Positions 9,892 to 17,560 of a stretch of DNA of 64,000 nucleotides are shown piece after piece. Positions within the stretch are counted from its first letter, which is position 1, and the number at the start of each line of letters is the position of its first letter. The stretch covers positions 1,979,940 to 2,043,939 of the forward strand of contig OY282444.1 in NCBI GenBank assembly GCA_958296125.1, written 5' to 3'. The DNA comes from an uncultured Poribacteria bacterium. GTDB lineage: Bacteria; Poribacteria; WGA-4E; PCPOR2b. Position numbers and translations under genes: made by a program. A model generated the notes under the pieces. It was not told the DNA's origin. It saw nothing but the letters and a program-made list of their open reading frames with translations, and made no database searches.

Positions 9892-12363
9892 TTACGCTTT
9901 ACGTTTCAGCGTGAGATAGAAGCGACTTCCTTTACCCAACTGACTCTCCGCCCAAACCTCACCGCCGTGGAGTTCGACAAGGTTTTTCACTATCGGCAGC
10001 CCTAAACCGATGCCGCCTCTTTTCGAGTCTGTCACTCGATGGAAACGATCAAAAATGAGATCCAATTCTGTTTGGCTAATACCGATGCCCATGTCTTCGA
10101 CGCAAATTTGAAGCATCTGATCCGATAGGGCTGCCACACGGACCTCCACATGCCTGCCGTTTTCAGTATATTTGATGGCGTTATCCAGCAAGTTTGTTAT
10201 AATCTGCCCCATCTTGTCAGCATCTACACACGCAACGACATCCAAGGCACAATCCAGACTAACTTGAATACCTTTTCTATCTGCCATCGGTTGAATCCCC
10301 GCGATTGCCTCATCAAGAATAGGGTACAGTTTCGTCGGTTCAAGCTGCAAGGAAATCTCGCCCGATTCAATCTGTGAAAGGTCTAGCAGGTCATTAATCA
10401 ACCGGATGAGCCGATCGCAATTGTCCTTTACTCGCAACAGATAGCTCGCCTGTTTCTCTGAAAGTCCCCCACCGACACCGTCAAGCAGGTTGTCCACAAA
10501 CCCTTTGATATGTGTTAATGGCGTTCGTAGCTCGTGGGACACATTATCCAAAAATTGAGATTTGAGCGTGTCTAATTGCTTGAGTTGGTCATACGTCTCT
10601 TTGAGAGCGGCAGCAATGTTGTTAAAATCCGAAACTAAATCTCCATTTGCAGCTTTTGGTATTGTGCCGCCATAAGTATCCAAGTAGGTCGCCATCAATT
10701 GTTGCCGCGCTATCTCCATTGCTTTTGTTCGTGCACTTAGCTGGGCGTAGAGCGTCGCATTTTCAATCGCAGTCGCCCCCTGATGTGCAAACGTACCGAG
10801 GAGTGCCAAATCGGCTTGGGTATACGGCTCTTCTGATAATTTTTGACCGAGTACAAGCAACCCCACTAGATTCTCGTGTTCCTTCGTCCGTGTCACGAAC
10901 GGAATCCACACTGCGGATTGGAGAAAGCCAATAAAAGTCTCTGCCGATTGAGATGGGGCAACCTGAATTAGATGAGGATCGAGGGGTTGATCTGAAAAAT
11001 CAAGCGGTTTGTCTGCCTTTTCTAGCCGTTCAAGCAGAGACGTGGATAATGTCAACGGTAATCCATTGGAGAGTGCATCAACCCCGACCGTCGCTTCTGG
11101 AACAAACCATGCCCCCTCGCCTGAAAGAGGATTTGCCTCACCTCCCTGATTGTATTGGGATTCAAAGTAACCTGACACGCGATACATCACGACTCCTCGA
11201 CTGATGTGTATCGCTTTTGTTACTTGGCGGAGTAAGGTATCTGCTAAGATTTCCAGATCGAGAATCGAGTGAAGTGTCTGGCTCAACGCCAAAAGCATTT
11301 GACGGTAGTTGTACGCCTCACGGTCAAATGCCCGATCTATCAACTTCTGAATGCGTGTCTTTGCAGGTGCAAAGAGTACAGCGGCGATAAGCACCGATAT
11401 AGCGGTCACCGTCCGAGAACGCGCAGCCGTATGGAAAAACATGGTGAGCCCTTGAATGCTTAACAGATAAATGCCGAGTGCGAATCCGCTGACAAGTGTA
11501 TATACAACGCTGCGATTGATAATGAGTTCGATATTCATCAGCCGATGTCGGATAATCGCGATGACATAGCAGATTGGTATAAGGCACAGCGTGTAAGCCG
11601 AAAAGCGGACATAGGGAATCGAGACATCCCAAACCCTCGGCATCGTCGTAAAGATAGCTTGGGGCAATGTCCCCGCAGCGATGCCAAGCAACAGCCATCG
11701 TACTTGACGACGTTGGGACGCAGAAGGTGCAGCAAAACAGGTGTGTAGGAGTAACAACTGTCCAGCAATCGAATAAGCGAAAAGAAATCCGGCCGTGACG
11801 TTTTCTAGAGGCGATAACTGTATCAGAAAGAATTCGCGGGTGTAGTCGTGCCCGCGCAGATAGAGGATGGAGGTTACGAGACACAAAGCAACCCCCGGAA
11901 CGTAGAGCCCTTTCAACAGCCACGCATGACGCTGGATAAACTGCTTTTCTGCCGGAAAGATGAGAAAGCAGTGAAGAAAAAGGCAGGGAGTAATTGTCGC
12001 CGATACGAACTGGCAGATCGGCAGCAGCTGACTGCTCAACGTTCCCTCAGTGCTTGAGAAAGTAGCGTCAACAGAGCATATACTCATGAAACCGATACTC
12101 ATCAGGTAGGAGATTCGCGCTGCCCGATGCGAACCCAAAGTTTCCTCACTTCTGTTTTTTCCATCAGATGCCGAAGAAACTTGGCTTTGCGACTGCTGCA
12201 TCCACACAAGCGTTGCAATCACCCATGTAATAAGCCCAATCAGGTAGAAGTAGCCGATTTCAGGCGTGTCCGGTGCTCTGGCGAAACTCCTTGCTCCGAC
12301 GATGAGGTATATGCCTGATGCAAGAATATAGAGAATGGTGGTCAGGTCGCGCTGGATTTTCAT
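9892..12363 (-). CDS. Membrane sensor histidine kinase with GAF domain
   Basis: An 823-residue orphan sensor kinase. The first third is a multi-helix membrane region (at least eight hydrophobic segments up to about residue 340), similar to 7TM-type sensor modules. A GAF-like domain follows (about 375-545, ending LLGTFAHQGATAIENATLYAQL), then a coiled linker and the HisKA dimerisation helix with the phospho-acceptor H610 in SHELRTPLTHIKGF. The ATPase domain has NLLDNAIKYTENG (N box), EDMGIGIS (G1) and GGIGLGLPIVKNLVELHGG (G2). No response regulator is adjacent, so the partner is elsewhere. The signal is unknown. Confidence 0.92.
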   Translation of the reverse strand: MKIQRDLTTILYILASGIYLIVGARSFARAPDTPEIGYFYLIGLITWVIATLVWMQQSQSQVSSASDGKNRSEETLGSHRAARISYLMSIGFMSICSVDATFSSTEGTLSSQLLPICQFVSATITPCLFLHCFLIFPAEKQFIQRHAWLLKGLYVPGVALCLVTSILYLRGHDYTREFFLIQLSPLENVTAGFLFAYSIAGQLLLLHTCFAAPSASQRRQVRWLLLGIAAGTLPQAIFTTMPRVWDVSIPYVRFSAYTLCLIPICYVIAIIRHRLMNIELIINRSVVYTLVSGFALGIYLLSIQGLTMFFHTAARSRTVTAISVLIAAVLFAPAKTRIQKLIDRAFDREAYNYRQMLLALSQTLHSILDLEILADTLLRQVTKAIHISRGVVMYRVSGYFESQYNQGGEANPLSGEGAWFVPEATVGVDALSNGLPLTLSTSLLERLEKADKPLDFSDQPLDPHLIQVAPSQSAETFIGFLQSAVWIPFVTRTKEHENLVGLLVLGQKLSEEPYTQADLALLGTFAHQGATAIENATLYAQLSARTKAMEIARQQLMATYLDTYGGTIPKAANGDLVSDFNNIAAALKETYDQLKQLDTLKSQFLDNVSHELRTPLTHIKGFVDNLLDGVGGGLSEKQASYLLRVKDNCDRLIRLINDLLDLSQIESGEISLQLEPTKLYPILDEAIAGIQPMADRKGIQVSLDCALDVVACVDADKMGQIITNLLDNAIKYTENGRHVEVRVAALSDQMLQICVEDMGIGISQTELDLIFDRFHRVTDSKRGGIGLGLPIVKNLVELHGGEVWAESQLGKGSRFYLTLKRKA

Positions 12364-12526: not shown

Positions 12527-13084
12527 TTATTTTCTTAACCCCGCTTCCAGATAAGGGCGGTAATGCACAAGGTCCGGTGTCAGGGCATCCGGGTCTTTCC
12601 CCATCTCGTCATATCGACGCAACCGCACCGCGTCGGCAAAGTGCGGTAAGGCTTCAAACGCCTTGACTTCCGTTTCCGTTAAAGGACCGCCTTGGAGCTC
12701 CAAGCTCTTGACCGAAACAGGGGATAACAAATTGAAATAATCCGGATCGATGGCACAGAGATAACGTTTCGCAGGCACATGCAGCCGAGCTGGTTCCGTA
12801 ACCGCTGAGACAAAGTAAGGCTCTAAAAGTGCAGCGACAAGCTCTTCGTGTTTGTCGTCTATCCCGCGTGCTACAACCTCCTGGGGTAGATCATGAACTA
12901 GATGACCGTAATCGTGCAGGACAGCGGCCGCTATTAACGTATCACTGGCACCATCCTTCTCAGCAGCGTGGGCGGTTTGCAGTGCGTGCTGCTGTTGCGT
13001 GACCTGCTCACCCCCTTCATAGAGTTGATCTCCATATTTCTGAAAGGCTTCAAAAATTTCGTTGATAATATTTGCTTTGCTCAT
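12527..13084 (-). CDS. PhnZ-like HD-domain mixed-valent diiron oxygenase
   Basis: Resembles the HD-domain oxygenases associated with phosphonate degradation (PhnZ, TmpB), which cleave the C-P bond of a 1-hydroxyphosphonate with O2 and a diiron centre. Starting at the ATG at 13084 (AGGA upstream; longer reading overlaps the previous gene) gives 185 residues. The metal set lines up with PhnZ almost residue for residue: H33, H57-D58, H61, H79, H102 and D159. K106 matches the phosphonate-binding lysine, and E26 the loop glutamate; Y22 is one position farther from it than in PhnZ. It is last in a cluster with a PhyH dioxygenase, the other half of such pathways. Substrate is inferred. Confidence 0.8.
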   Translation of the reverse strand: MSKANIINEIFEAFQKYGDQLYEGGEQVTQQQHALQTAHAAEKDGASDTLIAAAVLHDYGHLVHDLPQEVVARGIDDKHEELVAALLEPYFVSAVTEPARLHVPAKRYLCAIDPDYFNLLSPVSVKSLELQGGPLTETEVKAFEALPHFADAVRLRRYDEMGKDPDALTPDLVHYRPYLEAGLRK

Positions 13085-13130
13085 TTTCCTATCCTTATGC
13101 GTGTAAAATGGATAAAATCTACGTTTTCCA

Positions 13131-14177
13131 TTAAAATACAATCTCCCGCTCAGTCCTCGCCGATTCATAGCAGCCATCGATCAATTTCTGTAAATTCAGC
13201 AGTTGCCGACGGTCCTGCATTGACCACGGAGCCCCATCCCGCAGACGCTGAATAACGTCGGTGTCTTGGTTTTGGATGCTCTCACCCCAGCCACTGTTCT
13301 CCTGCAATTCTGGGGTTTTATTGACAACCTCGCCATCTTCATCCACTGTCACGATGAACGGATCGCTGTTGAGTTTGCCTTGGGTCGTGACCATCTCGAA
13401 ACTGTGAGGCGGGGGACGGTCATCGCACCAGTTTCCCTCTAGCACATAGGTGGAACCATTGTCGAAGCGAACCAGAGCGGTAAATAGATCTTCAACATTG
13501 AACCGTTCCTTTACCTCCGGTGAGGCGAGGGGCCCACGTTTCCCTGGAAACAGGCACCGCATTGAGGCACTCACTGAGACTGGATTTGGGGACCCCCCTA
13601 CCCAGATGGCAAGATCCAGCGCGTGTATCAGTGTGGAAGCAAGGACACCGCCGGCAGAGCTGCTCAGATAATAGTGAGGCCCCCACCAAGGCGGATTGAC
13701 GTGACACCCCCAAAGCTTGCAGAACACAGGCACCCCGACTTCTCCGGATGCCACTAAATTGTGGAGGTAACGAGAGGTGGGCATATACCGCATGTTCGTG
13801 CCAAGTTGTACCTGACGACCCAGCCGCTCCGCCGTATCAAGTACTGTTTCTGCCTCCTCCAAATTCCTCATGAATGGCTTCTCGCAAAGCACATCCGCCC
13901 CTGCTTCGAGTGCTGCAAGTGCCATCTTCACATGAGTGTTTGGCATCGTCGCGACAATGACCAAATCAAGTTCGCTGGACGCGAGCATATCCGTGAAGTC
14001 GTCAGTTGTCCGTGCTTGGGGCCACACCTCTTTTGCATTCTGTAACCGTTCGGGGCTGAGGTCACAGCACGCACTCACGACAGCGGTTTCTATGCCCAGT
14101 TCCTTGATAACCTTTAAGTGGTTTTGACCCTGCGCGCCGCAACCAATCACACCAACACGTATCGGTGGATCTATCAT
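13131..14177 (-). CDS. Gfo/Idh/MocA-family oxidoreductase
   Basis: A 348-residue NAD(P)-dependent oxidoreductase of the glucose-fructose oxidoreductase, inositol dehydrogenase family. The N-terminal Rossmann fold has RVGVIGCGAQGQNHL, the conserved EKPF motif occurs as CEKPFMRNLEEAE, and the C-terminal alpha/beta domain follows. The ATG at 14177 has AGAGGAG a few bases upstream; the GTG at 14195 does not. It lies between a PhyH-type dioxygenase and a PhnZ-like oxygenase, with gaps of 94 and 46 bp, so it probably acts in the same pathway, for instance on an alcohol or aldehyde intermediate. Substrate unknown. Confidence 0.9.
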   Translation of the reverse strand: MIDPPIRVGVIGCGAQGQNHLKVIKELGIETAVVSACCDLSPERLQNAKEVWPQARTTDDFTDMLASSELDLVIVATMPNTHVKMALAALEAGADVLCEKPFMRNLEEAETVLDTAERLGRQVQLGTNMRYMPTSRYLHNLVASGEVGVPVFCKLWGCHVNPPWWGPHYYLSSSAGGVLASTLIHALDLAIWVGGSPNPVSVSASMRCLFPGKRGPLASPEVKERFNVEDLFTALVRFDNGSTYVLEGNWCDDRPPPHSFEMVTTQGKLNSDPFIVTVDEDGEVVNKTPELQENSGWGESIQNQDTDVIQRLRDGAPWSMQDRRQLLNLQKLIDGCYESARTEREIVF

Positions 14178-14271
14178 GTCTACTCCTCTTTGCACAATCG
14201 TTCACTTAGTGGTGTATCTTTTAATCCGAAAATGACTCGATTATCATTGCAATACTTCCTTTCACTCACCG

Positions 14272-15090
14272 TTAATCAACCCTCGCCGGTTGCTGCGACT
14301 CTGTCCAATTTTCGCACCCTTGGAAAGCCATGTGAGCCCCTTCCACATACTGCGGACGCGGCGCGTAGTCATTCACACCGTGGACAACCTCACCGCGCAA
14401 CAGAAAGGCACAAGGCCAAGGCTCCTCTGAGGTAATTCGTGTGCTCGTCGGGATGTAGCGAATGGTTAAACCGCAACGCCGCTTTGCGGAGGGATTCGGG
14501 TTGGATCCGTGAATGATGTTCGGGTGATGTACCGAAACGTCACCGGCTTTAAGCACAAAATCAACCGCCTTGGATTCATCGACCAATGCAGGATCTATGT
14601 GAGAACTGAGAACGTTAGGGACACCAGTGCTTCGCTGCATTTCATGGAGTTCCATTCGATGCGTGCCGGGGATAACGCGCATACAACCGTTCCTCGGAGT
14701 TGAATCATCAACAGCAAGCCATAGCGTGACAACCTCCATCGGTGCCAACGGCCAATAGCTGCCATCCTGATGCCAAAGCACAGGTCTTCCATCGGTAGGC
14801 GGCTTGCTGATATAGTGGGACGCAAACAAAGCAATGTTGGGACCGATAAAGATTTCTGCAACATCAAGTAGTCGAGCGTCGCTGATCAACCGGACCCAGA
14901 ACGGATCTTCTCTGACAAGCCGATGGTGTAGGTGCTCAGGGCGTAACTCCGGATTCTTTTCAAGCAGCCAATCAACGTGATTGCTTGTCTCTTGAATTAA
15001 GTCTGAATCCAGAATGTCTCGAAAAATCGCGTAGCCGTCGCGTCTATACTGTTGTTGAACGAGGGCGCGTTTGTTCGATGAATTATCCAT
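14272..15090 (-). CDS. Phytanoyl-CoA dioxygenase (PhyH)-family Fe(II)/2-oxoglutarate enzyme
   Basis: A 272-residue non-haem iron oxygenase. The facial triad is visible as HQD (LWHQDGSYW) and a distal histidine in NIIHGSNPN, with an arginine in LTIRYIP for 2-oxoglutarate. AAAGGAAA precedes the ATG. PhyH-family members include PhnY and TmpA, which alpha-hydroxylate aminoethylphosphonates before a PhnZ-type enzyme cleaves the C-P bond. Here a PhnZ-like gene lies two genes downstream on the same strand, which suggests a phosphonate or related substrate. Family assignment is firm, substrate is inference. Confidence 0.88.
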   Translation of the reverse strand: MDNSSNKRALVQQQYRRDGYAIFRDILDSDLIQETSNHVDWLLEKNPELRPEHLHHRLVREDPFWVRLISDARLLDVAEIFIGPNIALFASHYISKPPTDGRPVLWHQDGSYWPLAPMEVVTLWLAVDDSTPRNGCMRVIPGTHRMELHEMQRSTGVPNVLSSHIDPALVDESKAVDFVLKAGDVSVHHPNIIHGSNPNPSAKRRCGLTIRYIPTSTRITSEEPWPCAFLLRGEVVHGVNDYAPRPQYVEGAHMAFQGCENWTESQQPARVD

Positions 15091-15252: not shown

Positions 15253-15726
15253 TTAGTGGCTGGATTCCTTTTTCTCGATCGGGACCTGCATCAACTCTAA
15301 GATAAAACCATCTGGATCCTTGAAGAACACCACATACACAATACCCCAGTCCAAGTCAAAGCTAACCGGCTCCGACACGAATTCGACTCCCTTTGCCCTC
15401 AAATCCTGATAGGCAGCCCACACATCCGGCACGCCGAAGCAGAAATGTGAGTGAGCGACATCCCCTACTTGTGCATCAGATACGTTGCCTTCGGGCGCGA
15501 TGTATTGCTGCAAGTCGAGCATAACTCCCGGCGTTTCGGGTGCCTCCAACCGGACCACTTCCATAATCACATCCGGTTTGCCTGCCATCTTCGAGATAGT
15601 TTCACCCTCTAGGTGATGCCGTTCGACCTCTTTCAGCCCAAGCAGATCGCAGTAAAACGCCAACGAGCGTTCCATATCGCTGACTGTTACCGATACATGG
15701 TCTAGAATATTGACGGAATTAATCAT
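15253..15726 (-). CDS. VOC-superfamily (glyoxalase-like) protein
   Basis: A 157-residue vicinal-oxygen-chelate protein with two beta-alpha-beta-beta-beta modules. Candidate metal ligands are the histidine in ILDHVSVTVSD, the HSHFCF histidine and the glutamate in FILELMQV. It starts with the typical MERSLAFYCDLLGLKEVER helix. GGAGG lies upstream of the ATG. It opens the minus-strand cluster with the PhyH, MocA and HD genes, 163 bp upstream of the dioxygenase. The superfamily includes epimerases, glyoxalases and dioxygenases, so the reaction cannot be named. Confidence 0.85.
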   Translation of the reverse strand: MINSVNILDHVSVTVSDMERSLAFYCDLLGLKEVERHHLEGETISKMAGKPDVIMEVVRLEAPETPGVMLDLQQYIAPEGNVSDAQVGDVAHSHFCFGVPDVWAAYQDLRAKGVEFVSEPVSFDLDWGIVYVVFFKDPDGFILELMQVPIEKKESSH

Positions 15727-16318: not shown

Positions 16319-17560
16319 ATGTTAAAAACACATAAAATCGCATTAGCCCCAAACAACGTCCAAGCGACCCAGTTTGCCCAACATTGTGGTTACGCTCCCC
16401 GATTCTATCGTCCGTGCCGAGACCAGGGGGACAGGCGTGTCGCCTACAATCACGCCTTAGCCGACTTCAAAGCAGGGCTCGATGAAGGGGTCTGGCATTC
16501 GCACATAGACCTTTGTCGCCGTTTCAATACTGTCAAACATGATACATACGATTGGTGCGGTGATATGTCACAGAACGCCTCCAAGAATGCGATTTATACA
16601 AATCTCAATGATGCGGTCTCCCGATGGAAGTCAAGTCAAAACAGATTTCCGAAGTTTAAGAAACGGTCTCATAGCAAGAGTTATCAAGCCGATAGCGGTC
16701 GAGGCACAATTTCTGTCGTAGGCAAGCGAATTAAACTCCCCAAAATCGGTTGGGTTCGCATATTTCAAAACCTACGCTACCTCGGCACGATTTGCAAAGT
16801 TGTTATCTCTAAGCAAGGGCATCGGTGGTTTGCTTCAATCCTTGTCGATACATTCGTTGATGACCCGCCACTCCTGGTCTCGGAACGGACAGACCCGCGT
16901 GGCAAGCCTGTTGTGGGCGTGGACATGGGTATTAAACACTTGGCTGTCACGTCTGTCCGTTCCGAGACCAGGGACGGTCGGTATTTTGCGAATCCGAAAG
17001 CGTTGCGTCGGCATGAGCGGAAACTCAAACGGCTTCAACGTCGATTTAGCCGCAAAGTCAAAGGCAGCCGCAACTGGTATAAACTGAAGGACAAGATAGC
17101 CAAGTTGCACTATCGGATAACCTGCATTCGCAAGGATGCACATCATAAGGCGACAACGGCTATTGTCAAAGGTGCAAGTCGTATCGGCATAGAATCTTTG
17201 AACGTCGCGGGCATGATTCAGAATCATAGACTTGCCAAAGCGTTATCCGATGCGTCCTTGTCAACGTTCCTTGAGATGCTGAAGTATAAGTCTGAACGGG
17301 CAGACGTAAAGGTGGTTGAAGCAGACAGATTTTATCCGTCAAGCAAGACGTGCTCGGCCCCGTTCCGAGGGCAGGCTTGCGGTGTAGTAGACAGCGACTT
17401 ATCTTTGTCTGATAGGACATATCATTGTAGCGATTGTGGTCATATCCAAGACCGAGACCTAAACGCTGCAATCAACCTGAGAACAGTCGCCGAGGGGCAC
17501 TCGGAGACGTTAAACGCTTGTTGCTTTGAATCCCGATTTATCGGGGTGGAGATTCTGTAA
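16319..17560 (+). CDS. tnpB: TnpB, RNA-guided nuclease of IS200/IS605 family, with in-frame repeat insertions
   Basis: TnpB is the transposon-encoded RNA-guided endonuclease related to Cas12. This 413-residue protein keeps the RuvC triad: D202 (GVDMGIKHL), E292 (IGIESLNVAG) and D380 (DRDLNAAINL). The zinc ribbon is C345/C354 and C370/C373. Four places hold codons derived from an 18-bp repeat: about residues 27-39 (PRFYRPCRDQGDR, between CGYA and VAYNHALADFK), 186-191 (LVSERT), 213-218 (VRSETR, between LAVTS and DGRYF), and 347-352 (APFRGQ, widening the first CxxC to Cx8C). All keep frame. Whether the protein is active is unknown; the triad is intact but a zinc knuckle is distorted. Confidence 0.9.
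   Translation: MLKTHKIALAPNNVQATQFAQHCGYAPRFYRPCRDQGDRRVAYNHALADFKAGLDEGVWHSHIDLCRRFNTVKHDTYDWCGDMSQNASKNAIYTNLNDAVSRWKSSQNRFPKFKKRSHSKSYQADSGRGTISVVGKRIKLPKIGWVRIFQNLRYLGTICKVVISKQGHRWFASILVDTFVDDPPLLVSERTDPRGKPVVGVDMGIKHLAVTSVRSETRDGRYFANPKALRRHERKLKRLQRRFSRKVKGSRNWYKLKDKIAKLHYRITCIRKDAHHKATTAIVKGASRIGIESLNVAGMIQNHRLAKALSDASLSTFLEMLKYKSERADVKVVEADRFYPSSKTCSAPFRGQACGVVDSDLSLSDRTYHCSDCGHIQDRDLNAAINLRTVAEGHSETLNACCFESRFIGVEIL
16410..16427 (+). repeat. 18-bp micro-repeat, tnpB site 1
   Basis: GTCCGTGCCGAGACCAGG lies in the codons that separate CGYA from VAYNHALADFK. The full extra segment (about 16397-16435) is longer than one unit and includes a second GGGACAGGC fragment. Confidence 0.8.
16873..16890 (-). 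repeat. 18-bp micro-repeat, tnpB site 2 (reverse orientation)
   Basis: CCTGGTCTCGGAACGGAC is the exact reverse complement of the site 3 unit. It encodes LVSERT just before the first RuvC motif. GC-rich sequence after it (CCCGCGTGGCAAGCCTG) may be further repeat material. Confidence 0.8.
16955..16972 (+). repeat. 18-bp micro-repeat, tnpB site 3 (exact codon-bounded unit)
   Basis: GTCCGTTCCGAGACCAGG occupies exactly six codons (VRSETR). Deleting it joins LAVTS to DGRYFANPKALRR, which is the normal family sequence at this place. Confidence 0.85.
17357..17374 (+). repeat. 18-bp micro-repeat variant, tnpB site 4 (zinc knuckle)
   Basis: GCCCCGTTCCGAGGGCAG occupies six codons (APFRGQ) between C345-S and A-C354. 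Its deletion restores CSAC, the expected CxxC zinc ligand pair. Confidence 0.8.

Follow-up and report, generated by a model that had tools for sequence, protein, structure and literature searches.

Gene Content of the Locus

The window analysed here, a stretch of 64,000 nucleotides (G000:C1:1979940-2043939), belongs to the single-contig 5.16 Mb genome of a Candidatus Poribacteria bacterium from a genus of sponge symbionts. Four genes, all real and all on the minus strand, make up the locus (Table 1). As the initial annotation had it, a PhyH-family gene (product PhyHw) and a PhnZ-like HD-domain gene (product HDw) share their strand and are accompanied by a MocA-type oxidoreductase and a VOC protein; the VOC gene is located just beyond the interval 12527-15090 given there. 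The start of HDw was placed at the ATG at position 13084, the 216-aa open reading frame reaching position 13177 being an over-extension, and the MocA gene lies 46 bp upstream.

Table 1. Features of the locus and related features (window positions unless a locus or contig is named).
Feature	Position	Strand	Remarks
Histidine kinase (GAF-HisKA-HATPase)	9892..12363	-	Downstream neighbour of HDw; syntenic in the genus
HDw, PhnZ/TmpB-type HD-domain mixed-valent diiron oxygenase	12527..13084	-	185 aa; TIGR03276, TmpB, and PhnZ matches
Gfo/Idh/MocA NAD(P)-dependent oxidoreductase	13131..14177 or 14195	-	PF01408, E 2.4e-24
PhyHw, PhyH-family Fe(II)/2-oxoglutarate oxygenase	14272..15090	-	PF05721, E 1.5e-32
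VOC/glyoxalase-family protein	15253..15726	-	PF00903, E 1.1e-20
TnpB/OrfB-like protein	16319-17560	+	413 aa; by eye
PhnY/PhnZ pair of the same genome	G000:C1:~191.3-192.7k (L056 7314-8691)		Overlapping genes
PhnC/PhnE/PhnD-like ABC transporter genes	G000:C1:~1691-1697.5k (L149 3410-9532)		Phosphonate type
VOC-type ORF near PhnZ-type HD gene	L047 5814-6191		By eye
VOC-type ORF near PhnZ-type HD gene	L048 1057-1359		By eye
VOC-type ORF near PhnZ-type HD gene	L138 2885-3703		By eye
VOC-type ORF near PhnZ-type HD gene	L054 8633-9046		By eye

The PhyH, MocA, and HD genes were adjacent and in the same order in each of the six genus genomes, at a synonymous divergence of about 1–2. Since synteny extends equally to the flanking genes, this conservation is of little weight. 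Orthologues of the VOC gene in genomes G016 and G017 were located apart from HD. A scan for promoters and terminators gave nothing clearly above chance, and no phosphonate gene was found beside HDw within the window. The TnpB/OrfB-like protein adjoining the cluster was not at the corresponding place in the four other genus genomes compared.

HDw Is a Member of the PhnZ/TmpB Group

HDw matched the Phn-HD model TIGR03276 over its full length with 212.3 bits, 2.3 bits under the cut-off of 214.6, and an orthologue with 89% identity (L041) passed it with 215.4 bits. Matches to TmpB (E 3.6e-39) and PhnZ (E 1.2e-26) were also obtained. The score was 184 bits against the TmpB model (cut-off 300), and the lowest of the three models was NF052439, for the hydroxymethylphosphonate dioxygenase GmPhnZ1, with 160 bits (cut-off 300). 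The AF2 model of HDw (pLDDT 88.5) resembled TmpB most closely (Z 26.0, TM 0.87), followed by PhnZ (Z 24), with a Z of 10.5 for myo-inositol oxygenase (MIOX). In the alignment with PhnZ and TmpB the ligands H33, H57-D58, H79, H102, and D159 and the lysine K106 all found their counterparts, in agreement with the initial annotation, according to which all the metal ligands of PhnZ and its substrate lysine are kept. Sequence, predicted fold, the six metal ligands, and the lysine together thus make HDw a genuine PhnZ/TmpB-group protein. The phylogeny against characterised clades that had been suggested as a check gave the same answer: the protein groups with PhnZ and TmpB and not with inositol oxygenase, whereas grouping with the latter, together with a lack of activity on phosphonates, would have spoken against the proposal. 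A myo-inositol-oxygenase-like protein is excluded by both fold and sequence. The gene is also under purifying selection, as indicated by a dN/dS of about 0.05–0.10 in a codon comparison with four genus genomes.

The closest characterised relative of HDw is TmpB (6NPA), the (R)-1-hydroxy-2-trimethylaminoethylphosphonate oxygenase, with 44% identity over 172 structurally aligned residues. The two share the fold, the six ligands, the lysine, and the loop Tyr and Glu, but HDw belongs to a separate clade, its loop is one residue longer, and no TmpA adjoins it. The fold and the active-site residues are likewise those of PhnZ from HF130_AEPn_1 (4MLM), from which HDw differs by an identity of only about 35%, by the YxxE loop of PhnZ, and by its clade.

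In the tree, HDw was sister to a protein of groundwater Chloroflexi (64% identity, support 99/94); alphaproteobacterial proteins joined next (92/87), with the TmpB clade near. HDw lay outside the PhnZ, TmpB, and PhnZ1-type clades, the last of these comprising the order-wide poribacterial HD proteins. Within the phylum the HDw type was present in the six genus genomes (6/6), and the HD matches in other genera were of the other type, with at most 48% identity. This distribution and the tree suggest that HDw was gained from outside the Poribacteria.

Elsewhere, family members were found beside TmpA (L053) or beside C-P lyase genes (L139-L141). At the nearest alphaproteobacterial relatives of HDw no recognisable phosphonate neighbours were found. 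The L139-L141 proteins are Chloroflexi HD proteins of the PhnZ/TmpB family, encoded next to the phn genes; the loop Tyr is missing in two of them and the His three residues after the HD motif in all three. Several unrelated genomes have VOC-type, glyoxalase-like open reading frames beside their PhnZ-type HD genes (Table 1). The frames differ among themselves, and those of L047 and L138 had no match among the NCBIfam models.

The Loop Spacing

The loop of HDw reads Y22-E-G-G-E26, or Y-x3-E, and was identical in the six genus genomes. The annotation's observation that the Tyr stands one residue farther from the Glu was accurate, both residues being retained, and the shift is fixed in the genus. 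As a pointer to a new substrate it is weak, because loop length varies across the family: the alignment contained YxE, YxxE, Y-x3-E, and Y without E. The YxE form is that of the poribacterial PhnZ1-type proteins and the YxxE form that of PhnZ and TmpB, as also reported in PMC8177086. In the alphaproteobacterial sister clade of HDw the Tyr is present and the Glu is replaced. The Y-x3-E spacing is a clade marker and, by itself, no evidence for a new substrate.

The PhyH Neighbour

PhyHw has an intact HxD motif (H107-Q-D109). It scored 24.5 bits against NF052437, the model of the methylphosphonate hydroxylase PhnY (cut-off 500), compared with 345.2 bits for the PhyH of a recognisable PhnY/PhnZ pair in the same genome, to which it showed 23.6% identity. 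No model for an AEP-type PhnY matched it, and the AF2 model, with a mean pLDDT of 52.9, was set aside. By the available models PhyHw is not PhnY-like.

Orthologues of PhyHw with 68–83% identity were found in eight poribacterial genomes of other genera, and in all eight neither an HD gene nor a close MocA relative was located beside them. In four of these, the drafts G011, G015, G017, and G023 (80–95% complete), no PhnZ-type gene was detected at E<=1e-8. The gene upstream of the orthologue was xylose-isomerase-like in G015 and G017. Reciprocally, the four genomes with the closest HD relatives (G085-G088) contained no PhyHw-like gene at E<=1e-10. PhyHw and HD genes thus do not co-occur across genomes as the hydroxylase and oxygenase of the PhnY/PhnZ pathway do, and no PhnY-type hydroxylase is adjacent to HDw. 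On the model scores and the orthologue contexts, the reading of PhyHw as a PhnY was rejected as improbable. A second, paralogous PhyH clade (54–58% identity to PhyHw) was observed in L103, L104, L105, and L106; in L103 and L105 other Gfo/Idh/MocA genes lie within a gene or two, and in Poribacteria PhyH and MocA genes are repeatedly found as neighbours where no HD gene is present.

The initial annotation had likened the locus to the PhnY/PhnZ and TmpA/TmpB pairings. The likeness holds in so far as a PhyH gene is found beside an HD gene. By the available models it fails for PhnY, as described above, and it fails for TmpA, which is not a PhyH protein but a member of the TauD/GBBH family. No hydroxylase of the TmpA type accompanies HDw, and the best match to the TmpA model anywhere in the genome reached 52.5 bits, where the cut-off is 400.

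At least 151 PhyH genes were counted in the 5.16 Mb genome, so that by density alone about 2–4% of genes are expected to have a same-strand PhyH gene within 1.5–3 kb upstream. The adjacency of HD and PhyH is mildly unusual and not decisive. We weighed a new oxidative phosphonate route in this genus, in which PhyHw would hydroxylate a phosphonate at C1, HDw would cleave the product, and the MocA protein would handle a product or precursor. The adjacency and order kept in the six genomes, the intact 2-oxoglutarate motif, and the fact that PhyH-type hydroxylases do act in PhnY/PhnZ are in its favour, as is the move of PhyHw to a place beside HD and MocA in the genus, the copies of G015 and G017 lying downstream of the xylose-isomerase-like gene. 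Such a route is nevertheless unlikely given the orthologues without adjacent HD or close MocA genes, the four genomes without a detected PhnZ-type gene, the lack of PhyHw-like genes in G085-G088, and a resemblance to PhnY at the superfamily level only. Of the two-step oxidative phosphonate pathway first proposed, the grouping of HDw with PhnZ and TmpB is supported, and the first step, with PhyHw as its dedicated hydroxylase, is weakly supported in view of the orthologue contexts and the 24.5 bits.

The MocA Oxidoreductase

The best solved relative of the MocA protein was DgpA, of the sugar 3-dehydrogenase type (E 7e-31). At E<=1e-55 its gene was found in the six genus genomes (6/6) and in none of 77 other genomes of the phylum. 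This genus-only distribution is shared with the HDw type, and of all the neighbours MocA follows HD most closely. Because both are restricted to the genus and separated by only 46 bp, MocA-HD is the best candidate for a functional unit. In a search run without a positive control, none of 11 genomes outside the phylum that carry HD relatives had a close MocA relative (E<=1e-30). In the Chloroflexi locus with the closest HD relative (L045), the HD gene is cut by the end of the contig, which hides its upstream neighbours.

It is conceivable, though very unlikely, that HDw, within the mixed-valent diiron family, has a C-X substrate other than a phosphonate and works together with MocA, for example in a sugar or polyol route. 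The distribution of MocA and its resemblance to sugar 3-dehydrogenases would fit, as would the absence of an adjoining phosphonate gene and the replaced loop Glu in the alphaproteobacterial sister clade. Against this reading, the sequence, fold, ligands, and phosphonate-binding lysine match PhnZ and TmpB, far from MIOX, and relatives in the family adjoin TmpA or C-P lyase genes. Another idea, speculative and quite unlikely in our estimate, is that MocA-HD, with or without PhyH, oxidises by a route of its own a phosphonate that PhnY/PhnZ, GmPhnY/PhnZ, and TmpA/TmpB do not handle, perhaps the head group of a sponge phosphonolipid; MocA would supply or remove a substrate or product of the oxygenase with the lengthened Y-x3-E loop.

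The Recognisable PhnY/PhnZ Pair Elsewhere in the Genome

The recognisable PhnY/PhnZ pair of this genome is located about 1.8 Mb from HDw and is of the GmPhnY/GmPhnZ1 (methylphosphonate) type. Its PhyH and HD genes overlap, the former reaching 345 bits to the methylphosphonate hydroxylase (cut-off 500) and the latter 273.6 bits to the hydroxymethylphosphonate dioxygenase (cut-off 300). Most of the order relatives examined retain the overlapping pair, in many cases with a metallophosphoesterase gene upstream of it. In single-cell genomes of Poribacteria, Kamke et al. 2014 (PMC3909097) described a PhnY/PhnZ pair accompanied by another phosphohydrolase, and they assigned the pair to 2-aminoethylphosphonate. 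Judging from the arrangement, our pair is probably the same locus, and the models used place it nearer the methylphosphonate type. Phosphonate-type transporter genes are also present in the genome (Table 1).

HDw has 42% identity to the HD protein of this pair, from which it differs by its clade and by an unrelated neighbouring PhyH. A role as backup, with HDw using the hydroxyphosphonate made by the PhnY of the pair, appears highly improbable. A GmPhnY-like hydroxylase is indeed present in the genome, and both hydroxymethylphosphonate and 1-hydroxy-AEP are substrates of GmPhnZ (PMC10574752), but HDw lies outside the PhnZ1 clade and below the NF052439 cut-off, with its lowest score on that model.

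Proposed Role of HDw

We propose that HDw, most likely a C-P-cleaving enzyme, was gained from outside the phylum and that the adjacent PhyHw is probably not a dedicated PhnY; this whole reading we hold to be probable. The C-P substrate is assigned by analogy with the family. With Fe(II)/Fe(III) and O2, HDw would split an (R)-1-hydroxyalkylphosphonate at its C-P bond to yield phosphate and a carboxylate. The ancestor of the sponge-symbiont genus would have acquired it along with the MocA oxidoreductase or beside it. PhyHw would be an older poribacterial enzyme, one of about 150 PhyH proteins in the genome, functioning without PhnZ, and for these reasons probably not a dedicated PhnY. The substrate of HDw may be a hydroxyphosphonate already present in the sponge or the product of another hydroxylase. 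Several points count against this proposal: a partnership would also keep PhyH, MocA, and HD adjacent in six of six genomes, although the flanking genes are just as syntenic; a same-strand PhyH neighbour is expected by chance in only about 2–4% of cases; no phosphonate gene adjoins HDw in the window, and no recognisable one adjoins its nearest alphaproteobacterial relatives; and the four genomes that gave no PhnZ-type match are drafts.

Where a genome has about 150 PhyH genes, a PhyH gene next to an HD oxygenase needs a test of orthologue contexts before a PhnY/PhnZ call is made. If HDw cleaves C-P bonds, the sponge symbiont has two HD C-P oxygenases that are independent and differ in origin, which would suggest that more than one organophosphonate serves as a phosphorus source in the sponge.
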